From Akkermansiaceae bacterium (GTDB taxonomy: Bacteria > Verrucomicrobiota > Verrucomicrobiia > Verrucomicrobiales > Akkermansiaceae), in contig JAGYIT010000006.1 of the NCBI GenBank assembly GCA_018402445.1, positions 186,001-250,000 of the forward strand: a DNA stretch of 64,000 nucleotides, written 5' to 3'. This document shows, in pieces, positions 48,559-60,879 of the stretch; position 1 is the first letter of the stretch; every line of letters begins with the position of its first letter. The notes below the pieces were generated by a model. The model ran no database searches and was not told the DNA's origin. It worked only from the letters and a program-made list of their open reading frames with translations. A program made the translations under genes and the position numbers.

Positions 48559-49707
48559 GTGCTTCGCCACAGTTCCACGCTCCTGATCATCGCCGTCGCC
48601 CTCCTTTGCGGACTCGGGCTGGTAATGCTGGCGAGCACCGGCGTCTGGGTTCGCGGGATGGAAAATCCCTACCACTTCGTCACCCGCCAGGCGATGATGG
48701 TTGGTCTAGGTTTGCTGGCCGCCTTCGGCATGGCGAAAATGCCCGGCGACTGGCTCCGCAAGCTCACGCCGGTCGCTTACGTGGGCAGTTGTGTCCTGCT
48801 CGCCCTCTGTTTCATGCCCGGCATCGGCATTGAAGAATACGGCTCGAAGCGCTGGATCAAGTTCCCTATCGTCGGCCAGTTCCAGCCCTCCGAGGCGGCG
48901 AAAATGGTCGTCGTCGTCGCGCTCGCCCTGTGGTTCACGCGCTGGCAGACGGAGGTGCATACTTTCTGGCGCGGCTTCGCCCTGCCTGGTTTGATCATCG
49001 CGATCCCCATCGGCCTGATCGCGGCGGAAACGGATGTGGGCACCGCTCTCTCGCTCGGCGTCGCGGCCGGTGCGGTGATGTTTTGCGTCGGCACCCGGCT
49101 GATCTATATGATTCCCACCGCCCTGGCAGGGATGGCCGGAGCGGCATGGTTCGTTTACAACAACCCGAACCGCTGGGGCCGCATCGAGGCATGGCTCGAT
49201 CTCGAAAACCCCATCCACCAGCTCGACCGGGGCATGCAGCAATGGCGCTCCCTCCTCGCCCTCGGCAACGGCGGCCCTTGGGGCGTCGGCCTCGGCAACG
49301 GAGTGGAGAAATTCGGCACGCTCACCTTCGCCCATATCGATTTCATCTTCCCCGTCATCGGCGAGGAACTCGGCCTGCCCGCCACACTCGGAGTCATCGT
49401 ATGTTATGTGCTGATCGCGGTCGGTGGCGTCGGGATCGCCCTCCAGGCGCGGCAGATCTTCGAGCGCTGCATCGCCCTCGGTCTCACCTGCATGATCGTC
49501 GTCCCCGCCATGGTGAACATCGGCGTCACCACCGCGGTCCTCCCCAACGATGGCCTCCCGCTCCCCTTCGTTAGCTACGGTGGCACCAGCCTCGTCTTCA
49601 GCCTCGCCGCCGTTGGCCTCCTCGTCGGTATCCACCGCCGCTCCCAGGTCGCCGTTGCCAAGGCTTTCCCACTCGGGAAGGAAGTGCGGCTGGCTGTGAG
49701 GCTGTAA
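48559..49707 (+). CDS. ftsW: FtsW, septal lipid II polymerase
   Basis: SEDS-family glycosyltransferase that polymerises lipid II at the septum with FtsI. The 382-aa protein has about ten helices. GSKRWIKFPIVGQFQPSEAA and ETDVGTALSLGVAAGAVMF are SEDS motifs, FIFPVIGEELGLPATLGVIV the catalytic-loop neighbourhood, and LPFVSYGGTSLVFSLAAVGL the C-terminal motif. Starts with GTG, 46 bp after the LysM gene. It is the last dcw gene in the window; no murG follows. Confidence 0.95.
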   Translation: MLRHSSTLLIIAVALLCGLGLVMLASTGVWVRGMENPYHFVTRQAMMVGLGLLAAFGMAKMPGDWLRKLTPVAYVGSCVLLALCFMPGIGIEEYGSKRWIKFPIVGQFQPSEAAKMVVVVALALWFTRWQTEVHTFWRGFALPGLIIAIPIGLIAAETDVGTALSLGVAAGAVMFCVGTRLIYMIPTALAGMAGAAWFVYNNPNRWGRIEAWLDLENPIHQLDRGMQQWRSLLALGNGGPWGVGLGNGVEKFGTLTFAHIDFIFPVIGEELGLPATLGVIVCYVLIAVGGVGIALQARQIFERCIALGLTCMIVVPAMVNIGVTTAVLPNDGLPLPFVSYGGTSLVFSLAAVGLLVGIHRRSQVAVAKAFPLGKEVRLAVRL

Positions 49708-49714
49708 GCCCTTG

Positions 49715-49835
49715 GACTGCGGCAGCCTGCTGTCCACGGCGGAGGACGAAGAAGTGAGCGCGGCGCAAGATGCCAATGCCGTCCGGTCACAGCAAGGCTG
49801 GATGACCGAAAGCGGCAGTAGGCTGCGGTTCGCAG
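49715..49835. repeat. Imperfect inverted repeat after ftsW
   Basis: GCAGCCTGCTG (49722-49732) and CAGTAGGCTGC (49816-49826) form inverted ends with one mismatch. Between them lies CTGTCCACGGCGGA (49730-49743), identical to 14 bp at 37714 before mraZ. A small palindromic element is likely. No transposase is nearby. Confidence 0.5.
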
Positions 49836-50024
49836 ACTAGACCAGCTGCCAAAAGTCCTTTCGTATTGGATTGTGGTGATTGCTAGCAGGAATTTGCTTT
49901 GTGCGGGAGGCCTTTGAAAGAGCCAATGGTCCGGATCGGAGGGCGGGGAAAAGGGGGTTGCCCCACGCGATTGTTTTTTTGCCGCATACGAATGCTTTTT
50001 TCCTCATGCGAATGCCACGGCAAT

Positions 50025-51237
50025 CTAGGTAGGGAGTAGGCTTTGAATGATCTGCTACCCGTGCGTGGGGGCTTTTGGGTGCGCGCGATCCTTCGCCGCT
50101 TTTGTTCATCAGCGAGCTGTTATGACGGGGTGCCTCGAACTTTCCGAGCCAAAGCTGTATCCCGCCTAAGAATACAAAAGCGGTGATTCTCACCGCAGTC
50201 AAAAGGCTCCGCCCCGCAACAGTGAGTCGATCCCTAGGTAGGGAGTAGGCTTTGAATGATCTGCTACCCGTGCGTGGGGGCTTTTGGGTGCGCGCGATCC
50301 TTCGCCGCTTTTGTTCATCAGCGAGCTGTTATGACGGGGTGCCTCGAACTTTCCGAGCCAAAGCTGTATCCCGCCTAAGAATACAAAAGCGGTGATTCTC
50401 ACCGCAGTCAAAAGGCTCCGCCCCGCATCAGTGAGTCGATCCCTAGGTAGGGAGTAGGCTTTGAATGATCTGCTACCCGTGCGTGGGGCTTTTGGGTGCG
50501 CGCGATCCTTCGCCGCTTTTGTTCATCAGCGAGCTGTTATGACGGGGTGCCTCGAACTTTCCGAGCCAAAGCTGTATCCCGCCTAAGAATACAAAGCGGT
50601 GATTCTCACCGCAGTCAAAGGCTCCGCCCGCATCCAGTGAGTCGATCCCTAGGTAGGGAGTAGGCTTTGAGATGATCTGCTACGTGCGTGAGGGCTATCA
50701 GCGAGCTGTTATGACGGGGTGCCTCGAACTTTCCGAGCCAAAGCTGTATCCCGCCTAAGAATACAAAAGCGGTGATTCTCACCGCAGTCAAAAGGCTCCG
50801 CCCCGCATCAGTGAGTCGATCCCTAGGTAGGGAGTAGGCTTTGAATGATCTGCTACCCGTGCGTGGGGCTTTGGGTGCGCGCGATCCTTCGCCGCTTTTG
50901 TTCATCAGCGAGCTGTTATGACGGGGTGCCTCGAACTTTCCGAGCCAAAGCTGTATCCCGCCTAAGAATACAAAAGCGGTGATTCTCACCGCAGTCAAAA
51001 GGCTCCGCCCCGCATCAGTGAGTCGATCCCTAGGTAGGGAGTAGGCTTTGAATGATCTGCTACCCGTGCGTGGGGCTTTTGGGTGCGCGCGATCCTTCGC
51101 CGCTTTTGTTCATCAGCGAGCTGTTATGACGGGGTGCCTCGAACTTTCCGAGCCAAAGCTGTATCCCGCCTAAGAATACAAAAGCGGTGATTCTCACCGC
51201 AGTCAAAAGGCTCCGCCCCGCATCAGTGAGTCGATCC
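50025..51237. repeat. Tandem array of six approximately 208-bp units
   Basis: Units begin with CTAGGTAGGGAGTAGGC at 50025, 50233, 50443, 50649, 50823 and 51030, and the array closes with CTAGGT at 51238. Spacings are 208, 210, 206, 174, 207 and 208 bp; the fourth unit has an internal deletion of about 33 bp. Each holds a perfect hairpin GCGGTGA-TTC-TCACCGC and a looser GGTAG...CTACC pair. A 70-codon minus-strand ORF occurs per unit with overlapping TTGA start/stop, but units differ by single bases in G, C, A or T runs that break it. Not CRISPR (unit too long, no spacers). Confidence 0.95.
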
Positions 51238-51305
51238 CTAGGTTGATCGGCCTGATGCGGATGCTATTGCCGCATGCGAGTGCATTATTTGGGGCGATGG
51301 GAGGA

Positions 51306-51401
51306 TTAGCGTTTTCTTCTGGCGAGTAATGTGTCGCCGGCGAGGAGGATGAGGATTGTAGAAGTGGGTTCGGGGACGGCGTTGTTTGGCATAAATCCCA
51401 T
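51306..51401 (-). pseudogene. Orphan PEP-CTERM sorting-signal fragment
   Basis: The minus frame reads NAVPEPTSTILILLAGDTLL and ends ARRKR, stop. This is the complete layout of a PEP-CTERM tail: VPEP, a hydrophobic helix and a basic end. Only about 30 codons remain upstream before no protein-like frame is left, so it is the end of a lost exported protein next to the tandem array. Missing from the ORF track because of length. Confidence 0.75.
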
Positions 51402-51521
51402 TTTTTGTAAGGGTTGTAGCGGATTGGGCTGATCAAAACATTGGTTTTGTGCAGCCATGTTGGCAAACGGTCTAAGGCATCCGCCGGGTGCGATATCCGG
51501 GAAAGTGTCTCTTGTGACGAT

Positions 51522-52352
51522 CTAGCGTCCGATCGAAACATAATCGAAGAGTCGCACCTCGCCGTAAAACACCGCGCAGGCGAGGATCGCCGGTTTCGAG
51601 AGGTTTTCCGTCGGTGCGAGCGTTTCCGCATCCACCAGTGAGAGGTAGTCGATCTTCGCAAACTCAGACCCGCCGATGATTTTCCCGGCCACGCGGAGCA
51701 TGGATTCGGCATCGCTTTCTCCAGCTGCGGCGAGCAGCGCTTGGTGGATGCGTGGGGCGTCGGCGCGCTGCGCGGTTGTGAGGCGGATGTTGCGCGAGGA
51801 CATCGCGAGGCCGTCGCTTTCCCGGATCGTGGGGTGAGGGATGATCTCCGTCTGCAGGTCAAGATCCCGCACCATGCGGCGGATCGCGGCTAGCTGCTGG
51901 AAATCCTTCTCGCCGAAGACGGCGGAGTTGCAGCCGGTGAGGAGGAAAAGTTTCAGCACTACTGTGCAAACCCCGTCGAAATGCCCGGGCCGCGCGGCTC
52001 CGCAAAGGTGGGTGGAGAGCGAGCTTTCCTTGACGGTTACGGAGTGGTCGGAGAAATACATCTCGCCGTCGTCTGGGATGAACACGCCATCGGCTCCGTG
52101 TGTTTCGCAGACTCCGAGATCGGCCGAGAGGGGGCGCGGATAGGCTGCGAGATCGCCCGCGCGGTCAAACTGGATGGGATTTACGAAAATAGAAACGAGC
52201 ACCGTGCCCTCTGTTCCGGCTTTTTCCTTGGCCAGAGAGATCAGCGAAGCATGGCCTTCATGCAGTGCACCCATCGTCGGCACAAGGATGATGGGACGGG
52301 ACGCTGCATCGAGGCGGGCGCGCAGTTCGGCTTTTGTTTTTGCGATCCACAT
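51522..52352 (-). CDS. panC: Pantothenate synthetase
   Basis: Joins pantoate and beta-alanine to pantothenate, using ATP. The 276-aa length is typical. IILVPTMGALHEGHASLISL holds the HIGH-like HxGH motif, VSIFVNPIQFDRAGDLAAYP the pantoate pocket, FGEKDFQQLAAIRRMVRDLD the KMSKS-like region and SSRNIRL the C-terminal nucleotide loop. Follows pgsA with a 3-bp gap. panB and panD are not seen. Confidence 0.96.
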   Translation of the reverse strand: MWIAKTKAELRARLDAASRPIILVPTMGALHEGHASLISLAKEKAGTEGTVLVSIFVNPIQFDRAGDLAAYPRPLSADLGVCETHGADGVFIPDDGEMYFSDHSVTVKESSLSTHLCGAARPGHFDGVCTVVLKLFLLTGCNSAVFGEKDFQQLAAIRRMVRDLDLQTEIIPHPTIRESDGLAMSSRNIRLTTAQRADAPRIHQALLAAAGESDAESMLRVAGKIIGGSEFAKIDYLSLVDAETLAPTENLSKPAILACAVFYGEVRLFDYVSIGR

Positions 52353-52355
52353 GAA

Positions 52356-52964
52356 TCAATCCCTCTCTCTTTCCGATTCCTGTTCCTCGCCTCCCGCTCC
52401 CCGCATGATCCGCATTCCCTGCCGGATGTATTGCGCCATGGAAAGCAGGATGAACACGGCGGCGAAGGCGCATGGATAGACAGGGGAAATCTCTGTCACT
52501 CGCAGCATCACCCAGCCTAGTACGACAAATAGAAAGAAAGTGCAGACTTTCCCCGTCCAATGCGGGCGGATCTTCACTTTTTTCCGGGCTGACCACATCA
52601 CGCGAATGCCCGCGAGGATCACGGAATCACGCAGCACGACGAGCGCCGCAAACCAGAGCGGGATGCGCCAGCCCTCCACTCCCCAATCAAAGAAAGTGAG
52701 GATCAGCAGCGCACTGAGCACCAGCGCCTTGTCGGCGATGGGATCGAGGAAAGCGCCGAGTTCCGAGACCTGATTGAAACGGCGCGCGATCCAGCCATCG
52801 ATCCCGTCCGTGACAGCAGCCGTCACAAACACCCAGAACGCCGCCCAGCGCAGTGTCTCGTTAGGCGTGCCCGCCGCCGTGCCGAGGCCGTAGCAGATGG
52901 CCAAGAAAGCGAACACCGGCACCAGCACAAGCCGGACGACGGTGAGTTTCGTGGCGAAGGTCAT
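52356..52964 (-). CDS. pgsA: CDP-diacylglycerol--glycerol-3-phosphate 3-phosphatidyltransferase
   Basis: Membrane enzyme of phosphatidylglycerol synthesis. A 202-aa protein with about five helices. The CDP-alcohol phosphotransferase motif D-G-x2-A-R-x8-G-x3-D-x3-D is complete in DGIDGWIARRFNQVSELGAF followed by LDPIADK. The start MTFATKLTVVRLVLVPVFAF fits the family (NxLTxxR). It is co-directional with panC. Confidence 0.92.
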   Translation of the reverse strand: MTFATKLTVVRLVLVPVFAFLAICYGLGTAAGTPNETLRWAAFWVFVTAAVTDGIDGWIARRFNQVSELGAFLDPIADKALVLSALLILTFFDWGVEGWRIPLWFAALVVLRDSVILAGIRVMWSARKKVKIRPHWTGKVCTFFLFVVLGWVMLRVTEISPVYPCAFAAVFILLSMAQYIRQGMRIMRGAGGEEQESERERD

Positions 52965-53012
52965 GCCGCGAGCCTAACAGCCTTATCGGGAAAGGGAATG
53001 CTGAATCGGCGG

Positions 53013-53726
53013 TCACCAGTTCACGTTCGTTCCGCGCGTGTCGATGTGCGTGAACGACGAGTATCTTCCAACGCCGCCCTTGAAGAGACCCCGGTCGCGG
53101 AGGCTGCGGGCAGCGGCAGTGACGTTTCGAGCGGAAGTATCGAACTGGATATCGACGGCGACATTCGCTAGGTGCCAGGATTGCCTTTTGGCTCCTCTGC
53201 AGCGGGCGTTGTAGGCGGGCGAGCGGTAAGCGGAGACGATCTCCTTCACCGGCACGCGCATTTCCGAAGAGACGCGATCGACCACGCGCAGCGTGTAGCC
53301 CATGCGCGTCCACCACTGACGCGGCGGCAGCATGTTCCAGACCGATCCGCGCTCCTTGGCGTGCGCCGCGATCACCTCTTGGGCGCTGATGTTGCGCATT
53401 TTCAGGGAGTTCAGGTAATTCGCGTAATCCTTGAGATTGCGTCCTTGCAGGCGCACCCACTCCTCGGGGAAACCGCCGATGTTTTTGCTCGGCGCGGTGC
53501 CTTTGCTCACCCGGGCATCGCTGGGGACTGATCTCACCTTCACGACCGGCAGTTCGTCCTTTTTTTTCCCAAACCAAGACGCGCTCGCCGTGCCGGAGGT
53601 GGCGCAGAGCGCGGTGGTGGCGAGACCCAGCGTGCCGATGACCTTGCGTCGGCTGGTGAAAGATTCCGACAGTTGCGCCGGTAAAATGAGCGGTTCGGGA
53701 GATTGGAGCGGCTCTTGGGAAGTCAT
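53013..53726 (-). CDS. Tat-exported M15-type (YcbK/DUF882) peptidoglycan peptidase
   Basis: A 237-aa predicted periplasmic zinc peptidase. SRRKVIGTLGLATTALCATSG near residues 25-48 has a twin-arginine signal. The catalytic part has SAYRSPAYNARCRG, then SWHLANVAVDIQF (HxxxxxxD zinc ligands) and THIDTRG near the end (HxH-like). Such proteins cleave peptidoglycan cross-links or D-Ala-D-Ala ends. Alternating with lipid and envelope genes, it fits wall turnover. The upstream gap is long and without a clear promoter. Confidence 0.8.
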   Translation of the reverse strand: MTSQEPLQSPEPLILPAQLSESFTSRRKVIGTLGLATTALCATSGTASASWFGKKKDELPVVKVRSVPSDARVSKGTAPSKNIGGFPEEWVRLQGRNLKDYANYLNSLKMRNISAQEVIAAHAKERGSVWNMLPPRQWWTRMGYTLRVVDRVSSEMRVPVKEIVSAYRSPAYNARCRGAKRQSWHLANVAVDIQFDTSARNVTAAARSLRDRGLFKGGVGRYSSFTHIDTRGTNVNW

Positions 53727-54132
53727 AAATGGGTTACTGAAGTGCTTTCGGGATGGTTCACCGGTAGCTGATAACGTGCCAGACGGAATTCAGACACTCC
53801 ACCAATCGGTAAAATTCCCGGACACCCAAGCAGCCTCAGAACTTGCGACAAGCAAAAAAGGCCGATTTTCCTCTAACAACGGGGGGATTTCGATATCTCC
53901 GGCGATCTCCTATTTCCCCGGGTGATTCCAAACACGAGCGGATCGAGTATTTCGGCACGGTTCGCAGCCGTGGGCATCCACCTCGGATGGCTGGCGGCGG
54001 CGGGGGCGGTGATGACCGCAGGCATCCGAATGCAAGGCGCGGCGCTAATCGGCAAACACGATTTCCGCGGGTGGAGGATGGTTCGCTTAGAATGTTCCTA
54101 CCGTTGGATTCGCTTTGCTGAAAATCTCCGCC
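53727..54132. other. Intergenic region between peptidase and lnt genes
   Basis: No confident gene. A plus-strand frame from 53922 reads RFAAVGIHLGWLAAAGAVMT, a hydrophobic run that could be a small membrane peptide but lacks a supported start. GCATCCGAATGC near 54022 resembles the ATGCGAATGC motifs that flank the tandem array at 50-51 kb. Upstream of the peptidase start I see no recognised promoter. Confidence 0.4.
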
Positions 54133-55869
54133 CTAGTGTTTTCTGAATGCGATTGCCGTCGTTAGGCCGATGAGGGAAAGCAGGATGATGCCCCAATCGC
54201 CGATGAGGGCGTAGAGTGAGAAGCTGGGCTGGACGGGGATGTTGAGTTCGGCGAGGAGGCTGCCGCGGGTGAAATGGCTGCCGTCCGCGTCGGCGAGGAT
54301 CTGGGGCTTTCCGGTGCGCGGATGGGCGGTGGAGCCGATGGTGTCGATGGCGGCACTGACGCCAGTGTTGGCGCAGCGGAGCATGGGGCGGCGCAGCTCG
54401 ATGGCGCGGAAGCGGGCGTTGGCGAAATGCTGGGCGGCGGCGGGGGATTCCTTGAACCAGCCGTCGTTGGTGAGGTTCACAATGATCTGCGGGCCGGAGC
54501 GGACGAATTTTCGCGTCAGGCGCGGCACGGTGTCCTCGAAGCAGACGGCGGGGATGATGCCGATGTCCTTGCCCTTGAGCTTCGCGGGCAAGGGATCGAG
54601 CGAGGGGCCGGCGGTGAACGAGCCGTTGTATTCGGCACCCGCCTGCTGCTCGTAGATTTTTTTGAGCAGCGGGATGGAGTCCACGAAGGGGATCGTCTCT
54701 CCGAAGATGACGAGGTGGTGCTTGCGGTAGGTTTCGAGGTCGCCCTCCGCGTCCTGGAGCGCGATGGAGTTGTAGATCTTCGCGTTCTCCTTTTGGTAAA
54801 GGCCGTCCTCGCGCGCCTCGCCTTCGATCTCCACCACGCCGTAGATCAGGTCGAACGAGCCGCCTTCGCGGACGCGGCTGATGGTGTCGAGGTTTTCCCG
54901 CCACGAACCCCATTCGCCGCTGTCGGTGCGGATGATGCGGCCGGTCAGCGCGGTTTCCGGCCACAGCACCCAATCGGGATGGCTCAGTTCGATTTCCCCC
55001 TCGCCGCCTTCCTTCACGGCGGCCTGGAGTTTTTCCTCATCCGCACTCGCGATCGCTTCCAGCGCGGTTGCGGTCTCGTCCTCGTAGCCCATGTGGACTT
55101 GCTCCGCTGTCCAGAGCTGGCGGGCGCCTTCGTGCGGGATGTTGATCTGCACGAGCAGGGCTTTCAGCGGGATGGATTCCTTGCCGCTTTCCATCGCGAT
55201 ACGCAGAAGGCCGTAGCCGATGAGCAAGCCGACGCAAAGGGCGGTCGCCCCGAAATCCCAGCGCGGGCGGCGGATGCCATCGGACGCGGTTTTCCGAATG
55301 CGGTGGGCGACCTGGATGAGCACGCATTGGAAAAACACGAGCATCAGGGAAAGGCCGGTCACGCCGAGGAGATCGGCGGCCTGGGAAATGACGAGGGTGT
55401 CGTGGAAAGCAACGCCGAGCCCGTTCCAGCCGAAGCCGGTGAACAGCCAGCCGCGCAGCCACTCAAGCCCGGCCCAGGCGGTGGCGTGGGTGAAAGCGGT
55501 GAAGAGGCTGCGGAAGGGGCTTTCGGAAATCTCTTCCGTGCGGTTCCAGGGGTTTCCGATCGTGGCGGCAAAGGCTCCGAAGGCACCGAAAAAAAGCGCG
55601 AGATACGAGGCCAGCACGATAGGGCCGAGCCATGAGACGGTGGAAAGCCACGACACCTGGATGCCGAAGGCGATGGCTCCGGTGAGGTAGCCGATCAGGA
55701 AACCTTTCTTCGCGCGGTGTTTTCCTTTCAGGCTCCACACGGCGATGAGCAATGGGATCAGGCAGACCCACGCGAGGATCTCCGCGTTGAAAGGCGGGAC
55801 GAGCGCGGCGACCATCAGTCCGGAGAGGATGATGGCCAGGGTGCGGAAAATGAGGGCGTGGCCGGGCAT
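54133..55869 (-). CDS. lnt: Apolipoprotein N-acyltransferase
   Basis: Adds the third acyl chain to lipoproteins in the inner membrane; consistent with the lipoproteins predicted in this window. A 578-aa protein with about six N-terminal helices and a periplasmic nitrilase domain. The catalytic triad is visible: Glu in DWVLWPETALTG, Lys in TYRKHHLVIFGETIP, Cys in GIIPAVCFEDTVP. The C-terminal helix (WGIILLSLIGLTTAIAF) closes it. Three bp after the HAD hydrolase gene on the same strand, so an operon is likely. Confidence 0.95.
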   Translation of the reverse strand: MPGHALIFRTLAIILSGLMVAALVPPFNAEILAWVCLIPLLIAVWSLKGKHRAKKGFLIGYLTGAIAFGIQVSWLSTVSWLGPIVLASYLALFFGAFGAFAATIGNPWNRTEEISESPFRSLFTAFTHATAWAGLEWLRGWLFTGFGWNGLGVAFHDTLVISQAADLLGVTGLSLMLVFFQCVLIQVAHRIRKTASDGIRRPRWDFGATALCVGLLIGYGLLRIAMESGKESIPLKALLVQINIPHEGARQLWTAEQVHMGYEDETATALEAIASADEEKLQAAVKEGGEGEIELSHPDWVLWPETALTGRIIRTDSGEWGSWRENLDTISRVREGGSFDLIYGVVEIEGEAREDGLYQKENAKIYNSIALQDAEGDLETYRKHHLVIFGETIPFVDSIPLLKKIYEQQAGAEYNGSFTAGPSLDPLPAKLKGKDIGIIPAVCFEDTVPRLTRKFVRSGPQIIVNLTNDGWFKESPAAAQHFANARFRAIELRRPMLRCANTGVSAAIDTIGSTAHPRTGKPQILADADGSHFTRGSLLAELNIPVQPSFSLYALIGDWGIILLSLIGLTTAIAFRKH

Positions 55870-55872
55870 GGC

Positions 55873-56643
55873 TCAGAGTTTGCCCGGATTTTCGCCGAGG
55901 GCGAGGAGAAGCGCGAGGACGCGGAGGGCTTTTTCCATTTCCGATTTCCACGGGCGCGCGGGGCGGAGGATGGGCCAGCCGTTTTGGACGGCGAGTTTTT
56001 CCAGCGGCGGCTTCGGGTTCACGACGGTGGCCTTTTCGCAAACGGCGAGCATCGGCAGGTCGGCGGTGCTGTCGGTATAGCCGTGCGAGTTCACGAGTTT
56101 TCCGCCGATGAAATACGATGCAGGTAGTAGTTTGCGGAGACGGATGACCTTGTTTTCACCTTTGTGGTTCGTGAGATCGGGGAAGAGGAGATTGTTTTCC
56201 AATACGGTGCCGAGGGAGAGATCGAAGCCGAGCAAACGCCCGACCTCCGCCGCGTAGCACTCGGGGCTCGCGGAGCTGAGGATGGTCAGGTGGCCGGCGG
56301 CCTTGTGTGCGGCGAGGGCGGTTTTCAGTTCGGAATAGATGCTTGGCTGGAGTCTCGCGGCGAATTCACGGGAAAGCTCCGCGAGACGTTCGGGCGGCAT
56401 TTTCCACAGGAAGCAATGGAACACGCGCTTCATGTTTTCCGTGCCCAGCAGCTTCGCGAAGGGCAGGAAGGCGAGGAACAGCGGCACGGAAAACGCGCGC
56501 CACGGCTCCGCGCGGATCACGTGGTGGCGGAAGAGGAGCTGGCAATCCCATGCCAGCAGGGTGCCGTCCATGTCGAAGAGGGCGATGCCGGGCGGTGGGG
56601 ATTCGGAGTGTGGCATGTCTGCAAGTTGACCGTGGATTTTCAT
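55873..56643 (-). CDS. HAD-superfamily subfamily IB hydrolase
   Basis: A 256-aa phosphatase-like protein. IALFDMDGTLLAWDCQLLFR holds the nucleophile DxD near residue 20, LTILSSASPECYAAEVGRLL the second motif, GENKVIRLRKLL the lysine and YTDSTADLPMLAVCEKATVV the final acidic motif. The HAD-IB pattern covers phosphoserine phosphatase-like and lipid-phosphate phosphatase enzymes; the substrate is unknown. Its ATG overlaps the ATPase stop (ATGA). Track start at 56955 runs into the ATPase gene and is rejected. Confidence 0.82.
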   Translation of the reverse strand: MKIHGQLADMPHSESPPPGIALFDMDGTLLAWDCQLLFRHHVIRAEPWRAFSVPLFLAFLPFAKLLGTENMKRVFHCFLWKMPPERLAELSREFAARLQPSIYSELKTALAAHKAAGHLTILSSASPECYAAEVGRLLGFDLSLGTVLENNLLFPDLTNHKGENKVIRLRKLLPASYFIGGKLVNSHGYTDSTADLPMLAVCEKATVVNPKPPLEKLAVQNGWPILRPARPWKSEMEKALRVLALLLALGENPGKL

Positions 56644-57812
56644 GGCTTGGCAAGCGCCAGCAGTTCCACCTGCAATGGCCGCAGGCCGATGGCTTCGATG
56701 CCGGGTTTCAGTTTGAACCGGTCTTCCCCGCCGTAAACGACGAAACTTTTCCCCGGATTTACATCGGCCAGGGCGGAGTGAAACCCCTTGGTTAGGCTTG
56801 GCGAGAGGCCGCGCTTGATCTCGACCGCCCAGATCTCGCCGGTGCGGAATTTCAGGATCAGGTCGATTTTCGCACCCGCGTTGGTGCGGTAGAAGTAGGC
56901 CTCGGTTCGCGGCGGGACGCAGGAAAGCAGATTCTCGATCACAAAGCCCTCCCAACTGGCTCCGACGACAGGATGGCCGGCGAGGGCTTCGAGGTTGCCG
57001 ATCCCAAGGAGTTCGTGCAGCAGGCCCGAGTCCCTAATGTAGATTTTCGGCGATTTAACGAGGCGTTTGCCCACGTTCGCATGCCATGGCTGGAGCTTGC
57101 GGAGCAGGAGCATGTTTTCGAGCAAGTCGAGATGCGCGGTTACGGTGCGACCGTCGATTTCCAGATTCCTCGACAACGCGGCGATGTTGGCAATGCCGCC
57201 CTGGGAGTGAGCCAGCATCGTCCAAAGATTCCTCACCTTTCCCGCAGCGAGGCGGCTGCCCTGGAGCGGCACCTCGCGCTCGAGATAGGACCGGATCAGG
57301 AAATCCCGATACTCGGAACTCTCCGCATCGCTTTCGCGAAGATAGCTGTCAGGAAATCCGCCGCGGAGCCAGAGGACATGAACCGGCGCGGGCGCGGTTT
57401 CGAGGGCATCTAGGGGATTGAGTTCGATGTAGGCGATGCGCCCGGCCAGCGTCTCGCTGCTGCGTTGGATGAGTTCCAGGGAAGCGGAACCGAGCAGCAG
57501 GAAGCGCCCGGTGGTCTTGCCATTTTTGCGGCCTTCGTCGATCAGCCCGCGCAAGGAAGGGAAAAGTTCCGGGACGCGCTGGATCTCATCCAGGATGACC
57601 AAATGTTGTTCCCGCGCGGAAAGGTAGTCCTCGGGATCGGAAAGTTTCCTCAGGTCGCGCTGGCTCTCCAGATCGAGATAAATGCCGTCGAATTCCCGGC
57701 CACAAGCCTGCGCGAGGGTGGTTTTACCCACCTGCCGCGCCCCCACGAGAGCGACTGCCGGGAATCGCCCCAGCAAAGCCATCGTCTGCGCGAATGCCCG
57801 CCTTGGAATCAT
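56640..57812 (-). CDS. DUF4143-type AAA ATPase
   Basis: Intact 390-aa member of the AAA_14/DUF4143 family. ALVGARQVGKTTLAQACGRE is Walker A, HLVILDEIQRVPELFPSLRG Walker B, and RFLLLGSASLELIQRSSETL the sensor region. The C-terminal DUF4143 part has YFYRTNAGAKIDLILKFRTG then EIWAVEIKRGLSPS, a nuclease-like D...ExK core. Family function is not settled. It is the second such protein here and shares only motifs with the 34-kb one. The start codon touches a 42-bp palindrome, suggesting self-regulation. Confidence 0.88.
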   Translation of the reverse strand: MIPRRAFAQTMALLGRFPAVALVGARQVGKTTLAQACGREFDGIYLDLESQRDLRKLSDPEDYLSAREQHLVILDEIQRVPELFPSLRGLIDEGRKNGKTTGRFLLLGSASLELIQRSSETLAGRIAYIELNPLDALETAPAPVHVLWLRGGFPDSYLRESDAESSEYRDFLIRSYLEREVPLQGSRLAAGKVRNLWTMLAHSQGGIANIAALSRNLEIDGRTVTAHLDLLENMLLLRKLQPWHANVGKRLVKSPKIYIRDSGLLHELLGIGNLEALAGHPVVGASWEGFVIENLLSCVPPRTEAYFYRTNAGAKIDLILKFRTGEIWAVEIKRGLSPSLTKGFHSALADVNPGKSFVVYGGEDRFKLKPGIEAIGLRPLQVELLALAKP

Positions 57813-57852
57813 CCTTGAAAAATTAGCATTATGATGCTAATAATACAAGGAT
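57811..57852. promoter_or_regulatory. 42-bp two-tier palindrome at the DUF4143 ATPase start
   Basis: The outer arms ATCCTTG and CAAGGAT and inner arms ATTAGCAT and ATGCTAAT are perfect inverted repeats around a TATG centre with 4-base A/T spacers. It reaches the ATG of the ATPase. AT-rich symmetry in a GC-rich genome suggests an operator or translational hairpin. Confidence 0.65.
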
Positions 57853-57869
57853 AATCTACGCGGATCCAT

Positions 57870-58472
57870 TTAAACGTAATGCAGCGCCTTGGCGCGGTCG
57901 TTGATCGCGGCGTCGTTGTCGAGGAGTTCCTGGATGGGATCCCAGCGGCCGGAAACGAGGGCTTCGCGGGCGGACTCGGGCATGTTTACGGGGAACTCGA
58001 GATCGCAGCAGGTGCGGACGGTCATTTTCTCCAGGTCGATGGTGATCTGTGTGTCCGGCTTGGCCTCGACCGCGGTGCGGAGGGCGGCGATGTCGGCGGC
58101 GGAGGCCTTCACGCAGGGCATGGCGAGGGTGGTGGAGTTGCCGTAGAAAATCTCCGCGAACGACTCGGCGATGACCGCGTTGAAGCCGTATTTGCGGAGC
58201 GATTGCGGGGCGTGCTCGCGGGAGGAGCCGCAGCCGAAGTTTACGCCGGCGATGAGGATCGAGGCGTCCTTGAAACGCTCGTCGTTGAGAGGATGGTTCG
58301 TTTTCTCACCGGTTTCGGAATCGAAGCGCACGTCGTAGAACGCGAACTCGCCGAGTCCATCGAAGGTGACGCATTTCATGAAACGCGCGGGGATGATGCG
58401 GTCGGTATCGATGTCCGCGCCGGGGATAAATACTCCGGTGCCGGTGACTTCTTTGACGGGTTCGAGGGCCAT
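57870..58472 (-). CDS. leuD: 3-isopropylmalate dehydratase small subunit
   Basis: Swivel domain of isopropylmalate isomerase in leucine synthesis; pairs with LeuC. The 200-aa protein has GADIDTDRIIPARFMKCVTF, GVNFGCGSSREHAPQSLRKY (substrate loop) and ESFAEIFYGNSTTLAMPCVK, all typical. It ends at 57870; leuC lies upstream but with a Uma2 gene in between. A 7-nt-phased repeat precedes the start. Confidence 0.96.
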   Translation of the reverse strand: MALEPVKEVTGTGVFIPGADIDTDRIIPARFMKCVTFDGLGEFAFYDVRFDSETGEKTNHPLNDERFKDASILIAGVNFGCGSSREHAPQSLRKYGFNAVIAESFAEIFYGNSTTLAMPCVKASAADIAALRTAVEAKPDTQITIDLEKMTVRTCCDLEFPVNMPESAREALVSGRWDPIQELLDNDAAINDRAKALHYV

Positions 58473-58485
58473 GGTGGTGTAATAG

Positions 58486-58516
58486 GAAACTTTAAACTTT
58501 AAATTTTAAACTCTAA
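58486..58516 (-). repeat. 7-nt-phased leader repeat before leuD
   Basis: On the coding strand GTTTAAA ATTTAAA GTTTAAA GTTTCC, just before the leuD start (13 bp gap). The same period as the leaders of lysC and leuC, with TTTAAA instead of TTGAAA. Confidence 0.75.
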
Positions 58517-58524
58517 TTTGGAAA

Positions 58525-59139
58525 TCAGCCGTCCTCGCGGAAGCGGAGGTAGAAGGGGCGTTTCACATCGTCCGGGAAAGGGTTCGACTGGTAGAAATCG
58601 GCGACCTTGATGGTCATACCTACGGATGACAGTTCGATCGCGGAATCCATCATCGTGTAGAGATGGCGTTTCCAGTTGTCCGAGCGGCGGGTGACGAAGA
58701 TCTCGGGCCAGGCCTGCTCCACGATGACGATTTCCTCCACGCTGGGGATGCGCTTGTAGGCAGCCAGTTTCTCACCCCGGTCGTGACGGGCGGTGGAGGG
58801 GGAGACGACCTCGATGATCAGACTGGGTTCGCGCATCACATGGGTGTCGGCTCCGGCCGGCTCGCAGGTGACGAACACATCCGGGTAATAAAACGCGGTG
58901 CCCAGATCATCGGAGAGTTCCACTTTCACGGCCTCCATGAAGACGCGGCATTGGCCGCCGCGCAGATGGCTTTTCAGGGCCGTGTAAACATCTCCGCAAA
59001 TCTCATTGTATTCCGCGCTCGCGCCGGCCATCGCATACACCTTGCCATCGATGTATTCATGGCGGATCTCCGCAACGCGCTCGCCTTCGAGATACTCGGC
59101 GGGCGTGATCGGGAGTTGCTTTGCAGCGCTGGCACTCAT
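58525..59139 (-). CDS. Uma2 family (DUF820) putative nuclease
   Basis: A 204-aa protein of the Uma2/DUF820 family, with a PD-(D/E)XK fold. The family is very abundant in cyanobacteria and some other groups but of unproven function. ITPAEYLEGERVAEIRHEYI, then DGKVYAMAGASAEYN, is the N-terminal hallmark; FYYPDVFVTCEP and PSLIIEVVSPSTARHDRGEK carry the acidic core (PDV, ExxS...D-x-K). Its place between leuC and leuD is unusual; these are mostly adjacent. Start ATG at 59139 is 12 bp after the leuC stop, so it is likely co-transcribed. Confidence 0.88.
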   Translation of the reverse strand: MSASAAKQLPITPAEYLEGERVAEIRHEYIDGKVYAMAGASAEYNEICGDVYTALKSHLRGGQCRVFMEAVKVELSDDLGTAFYYPDVFVTCEPAGADTHVMREPSLIIEVVSPSTARHDRGEKLAAYKRIPSVEEIVIVEQAWPEIFVTRRSDNWKRHLYTMMDSAIELSSVGMTIKVADFYQSNPFPDDVKRPFYLRFREDG

Positions 59140-59151
59140 TTCACGGGGATC

Positions 59152-60576
59152 TTATGCGACCGCGGCAGGCGTTTCCAGATCGAAAAGATCGCGGGCGTCG
59201 GTGATGTGGCCCTTGATCGCGGCGGCGGCGACCATGACGGGGGACATCAGGACGGTGCGACCGGTGGGGGAGCCTTGGCGGCCTTTGAAATTTCTGTTAG
59301 AAGATGAGGCGCAGAGCTGGTCGCCGACGAGCTTGTCGGGATTCATGGCAAGGCACATGGAGCAACCGGCAGCGCGCCACTCGAAGCCCGCGGCGCGGAA
59401 AATCTCCGGGATGCCTTCCTGCTCGCACTGGATCGCGACGATCTGCGAGCCGGGGACGGCGATGGCTTGCACACCCGCCGCGACCTTGTGGCCCTGGATG
59501 TATTTCGCGACCTCGCGGAAATCCGAGATGCGGCCGTTCGTGCAGGAGCCGATGAACGCCACGTCGATCTTGGTGCCTGCGATGGGTGCGCCTGCGGGCA
59601 GTTTCATGTAGGCGAGGGCTTCCTCGATGGACGCCTTTTCCTCGGGGGTCTTGGCCTTGAGCGGGTCGGGGATGCTTTCGGTGATGGAGATCCCGGCGTC
59701 CGGGGAAATGCCCCAGGTGACGGTTGGCTCGATGTCGGCGGCGTTGATGCGGACGATGTCGTCGTAATGCGCATCGGCATCCGAGGCGAAGGACAGCCAG
59801 CGGGCGGCGGTTTCGTCGAAATTCGTGTTGTCCACGTAGGGACGGCCTTGGAGATAGGCGATGGTTTTTGCGTCCGGATTCACGTAACCGCAGCGCGCGC
59901 CGCCCTCGATGGACATGTTGCAGACGGTCATGCGCTCTTCCATGGACATGCGGTCGAAGACGTCTCCCGCGTATTCATAGGCGTAGCCGATGCCGCCGTT
60001 CGCGCCGAGCAGGCGGATGATGTGGAGGATCACGTCCTTTGCGTAAACGCCGGGGCGGAGATCGCCGGTGACCTCGATGCGGCGGACTTTCATTTCCTCC
60101 AGCGCGATGGTCTGCGTGGCGAGAACGTCGCGCACCTGGCTGGTGCCGATGCCGAACGCGATGGCTCCGAACGCGCCGTGCGTGGCGGTGTGCGAGTCGC
60201 CGCAGGCGATGGTCGTGCCGGGCTGGGTGATGCCCTGCTCGGGGCCGACGACATGGACGATGCCTTGCTTGCCGGATTTCAGGTCGAAATAGGTCACGCC
60301 GAAGTCATCGCAGTTCTTGCGGATCGCATCGATCATCTCCGCGGCGAGCGGATCGGCGGGCTGATCCTGATTGATGGTCGGGACGATGTGGTCGATGGTC
60401 GCGAAGGTGCGCTGGGGGAATTTCACTTTCAGGCCAAGATCGCGCAGCATCCCGAAGGCTTGCGGCGAGGTGACCTCGTGGATGAGGTGCGTGCCGATGA
60501 AGAGCTGCGTGCGACCGTCCCCGAGGGTGCCGACGCGGTGAGAGTCCCAGACTTTCTGAAAGAGGCTTTTTCCCAT
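59152..60576 (-). CDS. leuC: 3-isopropylmalate dehydratase large subunit
   Basis: Iron-sulfur subunit of isopropylmalate isomerase. The 474-aa length is normal. [56 protein letters not shown] and [20 protein letters not shown] are family motifs; cluster cysteines lie in SCTNG and in [15 protein letters not shown]. The start [16 protein letters not shown] is preferred over the track's start 21 codons upstream. A 7-nt-phased leader lies 50 bp upstream. Confidence 0.97.
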
Positions 60577-60879
60577 GGTGAGTGTCCGCCGTGGTTCGCG
60601 GCGGGGCGGGAAGATGGATAGGCGGGATTGAAACTTCAACCCTCAAAAATCAACTTTCAAATCAGGGCGATCAAGCGAGGAGTGAAAACCGGCTACTTTA
60701 GGATTTTACTAGAGAGGGCACGGAGAACAGACTCTTCTTACTGATCTACAGGTTGCGAACCAAGACCTCCTCCGTGGTTGAAATTCTTCCATCCATGAAC
60801 CCGGACTTGCTCATTTAGCTGCTCCAAAGGATGAACAGACCTTGATTTCCCCTTGCTTGATGGCCGTGCAAAGATTGCC
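60577..60879. other. Divergent region between leuC and the spermidine-synthase-like gene
   Basis: Contains a 7-nt-phased leader at 60626-60664 (minus strand ATTTGAA AGTTGAT TTTTGAG GGTTGAA GTTTC) before leuC, nearly the same as the one before lysC. The remainder has mixed composition and no gene or terminator that I recognise. Confidence 0.6.

Follow-up and report, generated by a model that had tools for sequence, protein, structure and literature searches.

The window analysed here, 64,000 nucleotides on contig C4 of the genome of an Akkermansiaceae bacterium (G000), contains a head-to-tail array of six units at positions 50025-51243, between ftsW (48559-49707, plus strand) and panC (51522-52352, minus strand). 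The array was detected with Tandem Repeats Finder (TRF; scores above 1000), and coordinates given without a contig or locus are positions in the window. This array is very probably a tandem cluster of a REPIN (REP doublet forming hairpins), a non-coding, selfish mobile element of ~140 bp built from two inverted repetitive extragenic palindromic (REP) sequences, which was mobilised in trans by a cognate REP-associated tyrosine transposase (RAYT, a Y1/HUH enzyme) and then amplified. Most likely, the array has no dedicated host function.

Tandem arrays within a dispersed family of paired REP hairpins

A whole-genome search with the window unit gave 46 BLAST matches in the same genome, indicating that the unit is not confined to the array locus. 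Sorting of these matches yielded four tandem arrays, about 12 complete copies that stand singly, and a few incomplete ones. Besides the window array, with its six units at a step of ~208 bp, the family contains four copies of 206 bp at C5:90017-90838 (L009), eleven of 166 bp at C4:55071-57439 (L017; 8.9 copies by TRF and 1.9 more beyond a RAYT gene) and nine of 195 bp at C4:286135-287834 (L018; 8.8 copies by TRF). The stretch common to all family copies is only ~140 bp long, and the linkers vary from array to array, except that the window and C5 arrays are related across the whole unit (87%). This common core consists of two inverted REP-like hairpins of the form CTTTTGA(G/C)TGCG-stem-loop-CCGCTTTTG (CTTTTGASTGCG type), flanking a spacer of ~70 bp, and the stem of the left REP usually has one bulged base. 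The strict REP motif CTTTTGASTGCG..CCGCTTT matched 61 times in the genome, versus no match for the reversed pattern.

Identity is 93-100% inside the window array versus 69-90% between loci. The arrays are thus homogeneous within and diverged between loci, and amplification was therefore later than dispersal. The homogeneity does reflect recent amplification, one of the two causes (the other being ongoing conversion) that the preliminary description of this DNA, made from its letters alone, had read from it. Its suggestion of a selfish satellite was close, in that the unit belongs to a mobile, RAYT-linked family of palindromes that has been amplified in tandem. Tandem arrays of this REP type also exist in three other genomes (G168, G156 and G037). 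At one locus of the first of these (L174, G168:C47), REP arrays are interspersed with other tandem repeats, of 35 bp (CAGCCAGCTAGAAAAACCAACCCATCTCCGCAGTT) and 7 bp (AAAACTG).

For two of the sister arrays, the corresponding sites are free of the element in relatives: the L018 site in G005 and G197, and the L009 site in G005, G192 and G008. In G184, G192 and G008 (L270, L271 and L273) the L018 site holds an unrelated palindromic element of ~170 bp (GGGGAGCACACGCGCCCTCGCGTGTTG...), which suggests that this intergenic site is an insertion hot spot. Reading the ~170-bp insert in G184 and G192 as a single copy of the present element was wrong, as it is this unrelated palindrome.

The distribution of the family also bears on a proposal of the preliminary description, that the array binds a nucleoid or partition protein; we weighed it together with binding of gyrase and with selection for such binding, as proposed for the BIME-2 clusters (bacterial interspersed mosaic elements) of Escherichia coli. 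Tandem REP clusters of E. coli bind gyrase (PMC2817692), and the window array, itself homogeneous, has convergent genes on its two sides, a setting in which positive supercoils would be expected to meet. However, the positions of the arrays are not common to close relatives, the spacers vary among arrays and most loci hold a single copy, and we consider a selected binding array unlikely.

Within the window array, the count of six near-identical units (pairwise identity 93-100%) given by the preliminary description stands, as do its internal perfect hairpins, since the 7-bp hairpin GCGGTGA-TTC-TCACCGC is present in every unit. The uniform length of 208 bp does not: five units measure 206-209 bp and unit 4 only 174 bp. 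Unit 1 (50025-50233, 209 bp) begins with the junction repeat CTAGGT and carries the left REP at 50072-50104 on the plus strand (stem GCG-c-GCGA/TCGC-CGC, one base bulged) and the right REP at 50175-50205 on the minus strand, where it reads CTTTTGACTGCGGTGAGAATCACCGCTTTTG and also scored as terminator-like. It is followed, likewise on the plus strand, by unit 2 (50234-50442, 209 bp), unit 3 (50443-50648, 206 bp, with several one-base homopolymer differences), unit 4 (50649-50822, 174 bp), which has lost ~35 bp including the left REP, unit 5 (50823-51029, 207 bp) and unit 6 (51030-51236, 207 bp), after which a closing CTAGGT junction repeat reaches 51243. The region contains seven terminator-like sites where 2.4 would be expected, and six of the seven correspond to the right REPs as minus-strand hairpins. 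As a side effect, these minus-strand hairpins may end transcripts between the convergent ftsW and panC.

The number of units could in principle be an artefact of assembly, the real genome having fewer or another number. The genome is a metagenome-like draft (3.53 Mb in 17 contigs, 88% complete), and the unit differences other than the deletion are mostly one-base changes within homopolymer runs, indels of a kind typical of long-read error; for this reason, part of them may be assembly error. Nevertheless, the array lies within its contig between unique flanks, similar arrays exist at three other loci of the genome as well as in the three other genomes named above, and the deletion private to unit 4 is not made by a collapsed or looped assembly. 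An artefactual array is highly improbable.

The preliminary description further suggested a structured non-coding RNA array, weighed here as an RNA transcribed across several units and retained for a function in the host. Consistent with this, folding of the unit is better than that of shuffled sequences for either strand (z -2.2 and -2.1), 22 diverged copies retain the hairpins, one position of the right stem shows compensatory changes (UA, GC or CG, although seven of the 22 sequences are unpaired there), and the spacer is conserved in parts. However, the two strands fold about equally well, an Rfam search of the array gave no match and no promoter-like site was found in the region. A predicted long-range stem joining both halves of the unit is conserved but contains no pair with a compensatory change, and long-range covariation was dropped as proof of RNA structure for this reason. 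Moreover, the family is spread over many loci in either orientation; close relatives lack two of the arrays at the corresponding sites; a transposase gene is flanked by these same hairpins; and a REP explains the structure equally well. Taken together, these results make an RNA array very unlikely.

The preliminary description also assigned each unit a minus-strand open reading frame (ORF) of 70 codons. Such an ORF exists only at 50199-50411; elsewhere the frame stays open for 121, 127 or 219 codons, and in unit 3 it is shifted. Comparison of the ORF between the window array and a sister array gave 1 synonymous and 11 non-synonymous changes, and together with the frame shifts between units these led us to reject a gene or protein-coding repeat. 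Judged from these substitutions and frames, the ORF is a fortuitous by-product.

A RAYT gene flanked by the same REP

The genome contains 32 matches to Y1_Tnp, and one of the RAYT genes lies inside the 166-bp array (3050-3583 of L017, minus strand), which it splits into nine units and two. The encoded protein of ~178 amino acids has intact HYH and Y..NNP residues, of which HYH (65-67) and Y127 are invariant in the alignment. It matched the NCBIfam model for REP-associated tyrosine transposases with an E-value of 1.1e-19, under the curated cut-off of that model, and the profile of its family matched the solved TnpA-REP structure 4er8 (E 9.6e-10).

A RAYT gene flanked by the same REP was found in this genome and in five others (L017, L088 and L181-L185). 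In four relatives (L181-L184) the RAYT homologues are 88-91% identical and stand in plain REPIN-RAYT-REPIN cassettes, and a homologue from another family, 72% identical, has the same REP on both sides. The closest homologues of the L017 protein found in GTDB are from lake metagenome-assembled genomes labelled 'Prosthecobacter debontii', and CTTTGGASTGCG variants are seen with homologues that are more distant. In a set of 80 RAYT loci, 37 REP matches fell in the 76 kb within 500 bp of the gene versus 3 in the 267 kb farther away. Among 142 genomes of the order, 31 have both REP and RAYT, 24 have RAYT only, 7 have REP only and 80 have neither (odds ratio 14.8, p 4e-10, in a Fisher test that ignores shared ancestry). 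These observations are consistent with a family that works like a REPIN-RAYT system, in which the RAYT is predicted to act on single-stranded REPs.

Other RAYTs of the genome were considered as the partner. The commonest type, a Y1_Tnp/RAYT protein of ~370-380 amino acids encoded in many copies (e.g. C16:132240, C16:143021, C16:243032, C10:132456 and C5:861364), was rejected, as no CTTTTGASTGCG hairpin was found near those genes. A second RAYT of 336 amino acids (L014/L047; 600-1750 of L014, on C17) adjoins a single REPIN copy but has other short repeats of its own (TTTTGGGGTCAGGTTCCTCATCGCAACA) beside it, at the start of the gene, and is the less likely partner.

Outer repeats, unit junctions and a rearranged neighbourhood

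The window array is enclosed by the outer inverted repeats of a miniature inverted-repeat transposable element (MITE) of ~220-250 bp with the family consensus CAGGGCGATCAAGCTAGGGA. The left terminal repeat (CACGGCAATCTAGGTAGGGA) lies at 50016-50035 on the plus strand and the right one (TCCCTAGGTTGATCGGCCTG) at 51235-51254 on the minus strand. Directly outside them is a possible target-site duplication, ATGCGAATGC at 50006-50015 and ATGCGGATGC at 51255-51264, which match at nine of ten positions; both copies are ambiguous because similar repeats of ~20 bp (TTGCCGCATGCGAATGC type) flank the array on both sides (49958-50015 and 51255-51290).

The MITE itself could be the mobile unit, with a DDE-type transposase moving the outer repeats and the REPIN carried as a passenger. 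Pairs of these outer repeats, spaced by 216-259 bp, are found repeatedly and enclose one of two kinds of interior, and three MITE copies (L166, L156 and L153) have exact 10-bp flanking duplications; a full-length single MITE copy with a REPIN inside occurs in G005 and in G192. On the other hand, many family members have the REP core without outer repeats (L018-L021, L025 and L026), so the core spreads alone as well. Movement driven by the MITE alone is a possibility that we take seriously without favouring it, and MITE-driven and REPIN-driven movement may both be true in turn.

For a REPIN mobilised by its RAYT, spread of the element would follow from the cutting and rejoining of folded single-stranded REPs by the enzyme during replication. 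At the window locus, the REPIN would have arrived, or ridden, inside the MITE. The junction between units is here CTAGGT, a 6-bp direct repeat formed by the two outer MITE ends, and through this repeat, with the hairpins assisting, replication slippage or unequal exchange would have raised the number of units to six. At the C5 array the unit junction is GATCCATC. In the L018 array the linker duplicates part of the neighbouring gene from ~125 bp upstream of the array, and both of its joints show microhomology. For the arrays in general, template switching and slippage at microhomologies, again aided by the hairpins, were most likely at work. Alternatively, the RAYT might itself drive the tandem amplification, for instance through the copying of a single-stranded REPIN that is circular or re-replicated, such that arrays are a regular RAYT product and not the result of passive slippage. 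This would fit the occurrence of four arrays among ~16 loci, the RAYT gene inside one of them and the arrays of the same REP in other genera, but we regard it as doubtful.

The gene order around the array was then compared with that of the closest relatives. The preliminary description had placed the array where murG is usually found. This proved incorrect for the present lineage: murG is on another contig (C5:842543), and leuC comes directly after ftsW in the three closest relatives, for which reason a displacement of murG was rejected. In three relatives, panC is followed by another gene, which reads like tatC, so the order ftsW-array-panC is a new junction. The rearrangement relative to the closest relatives spans 49707-60869 and leaves panC without its usual neighbour; leuC is found here on the minus strand at 59152-60639, ~9.5 kb from ftsW and inverted. 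Homology on the outer side of leuC stops no more than a few bases from a second MITE (60663-60869, minus strand), at the leuC end of the rearrangement, which has the same terminal repeats and another interior (CACGGAGGACACGGAGAACACGGAGG type). Further full copies with this interior are present at C17:48265-48484 and C17:291915-292130, and in G184. No inverted repeats of at least 24 bp were found between the two ends of the rearrangement.

Several observations weigh against identifying the window array as a RAYT-mobilised REPIN cluster. Its site is in the rearranged junction, and hence no orthologous empty site is available for comparison. The foot of the REP is CTTTTGA(G/C)T and the tetranucleotide GTAG (or GT[AG]G) at the 5′ foot is not present, so this is not a classical GTAG REP. 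Diverged copies have kept the spacer stretches GTTCAC, GAACTTTCC and TAAGGATA, a conservation for which a pure REP-spacer-REP model has no need. Regarding the association with RAYT, the 24 RAYT-only genomes lack the REP by the pattern used, the 7 REP-only genomes lack a RAYT at the threshold used, and the co-occurrence test takes no account of shared ancestry.

Comparison with known REPIN clusters

Ordered tandem REPIN clusters that include flanking DNA, some beside RAYT genes, were described in Pseudomonas fluorescens SBW25 by Bertels and Rainey (2011, PMC3116915), to whom they indicated a second mechanism besides transposition. As in the present family, REPIN clusters of SBW25 adjoin RAYT genes and are outnumbered by single REPINs (PMC3116915). 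They differ in that SBW25 has 16 clusters of at most 4 REPINs each, built from classical REPs (PMC3116915), whereas the family described here forms arrays of 4 to 11 units, has a RAYT gene inside one of them, lacks the GTAG foot and has a REPIN of ~140 bp. With its arrays of 4-11 units and different linkers, element-free sites, microhomology junctions and a RAYT gene in one array, this family provides material for studying that second mechanism, and several genera of the order show the same array-forming behaviour. With it comes a further REP type that lacks the GTAG foot, along with its RAYT, from the Verrucomicrobia, a group for which we found few descriptions of such systems. The family is also a warning to annotators not to read such arrays as genes or RNAs.

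The BIME-2 of E. coli are similar in that their tandem units consist of alternating inverted REPs (PMC2817692); they differ in that the E. coli REPs are of another sequence, with GTAG and a bulged stem, and that their gyrase binding is known. In the REPtrons and TIRtrons of Di Nocera (2013, PMC3733652), a Y1 transposase gene is likewise framed by inverted palindromic repeats that are also dispersed as a family, and dimers and large clusters carry flanking DNA; the CTTTTGASTGCG type was not found in the text passages of that paper. Classes 2.6 and 3 of TnpA-Y1 resemble the present system in that their RAYT-like genes are bordered by hairpins which lack GT[AG]G and have copies elsewhere in the genome (PMC6006769), although the foot reported for class 3 is CnGA (PMC6006769), as against CTTTTGA(G/C)T here. 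Such arrays are thus known in other bacteria, and the present one is a well-preserved new example and not a new kind.
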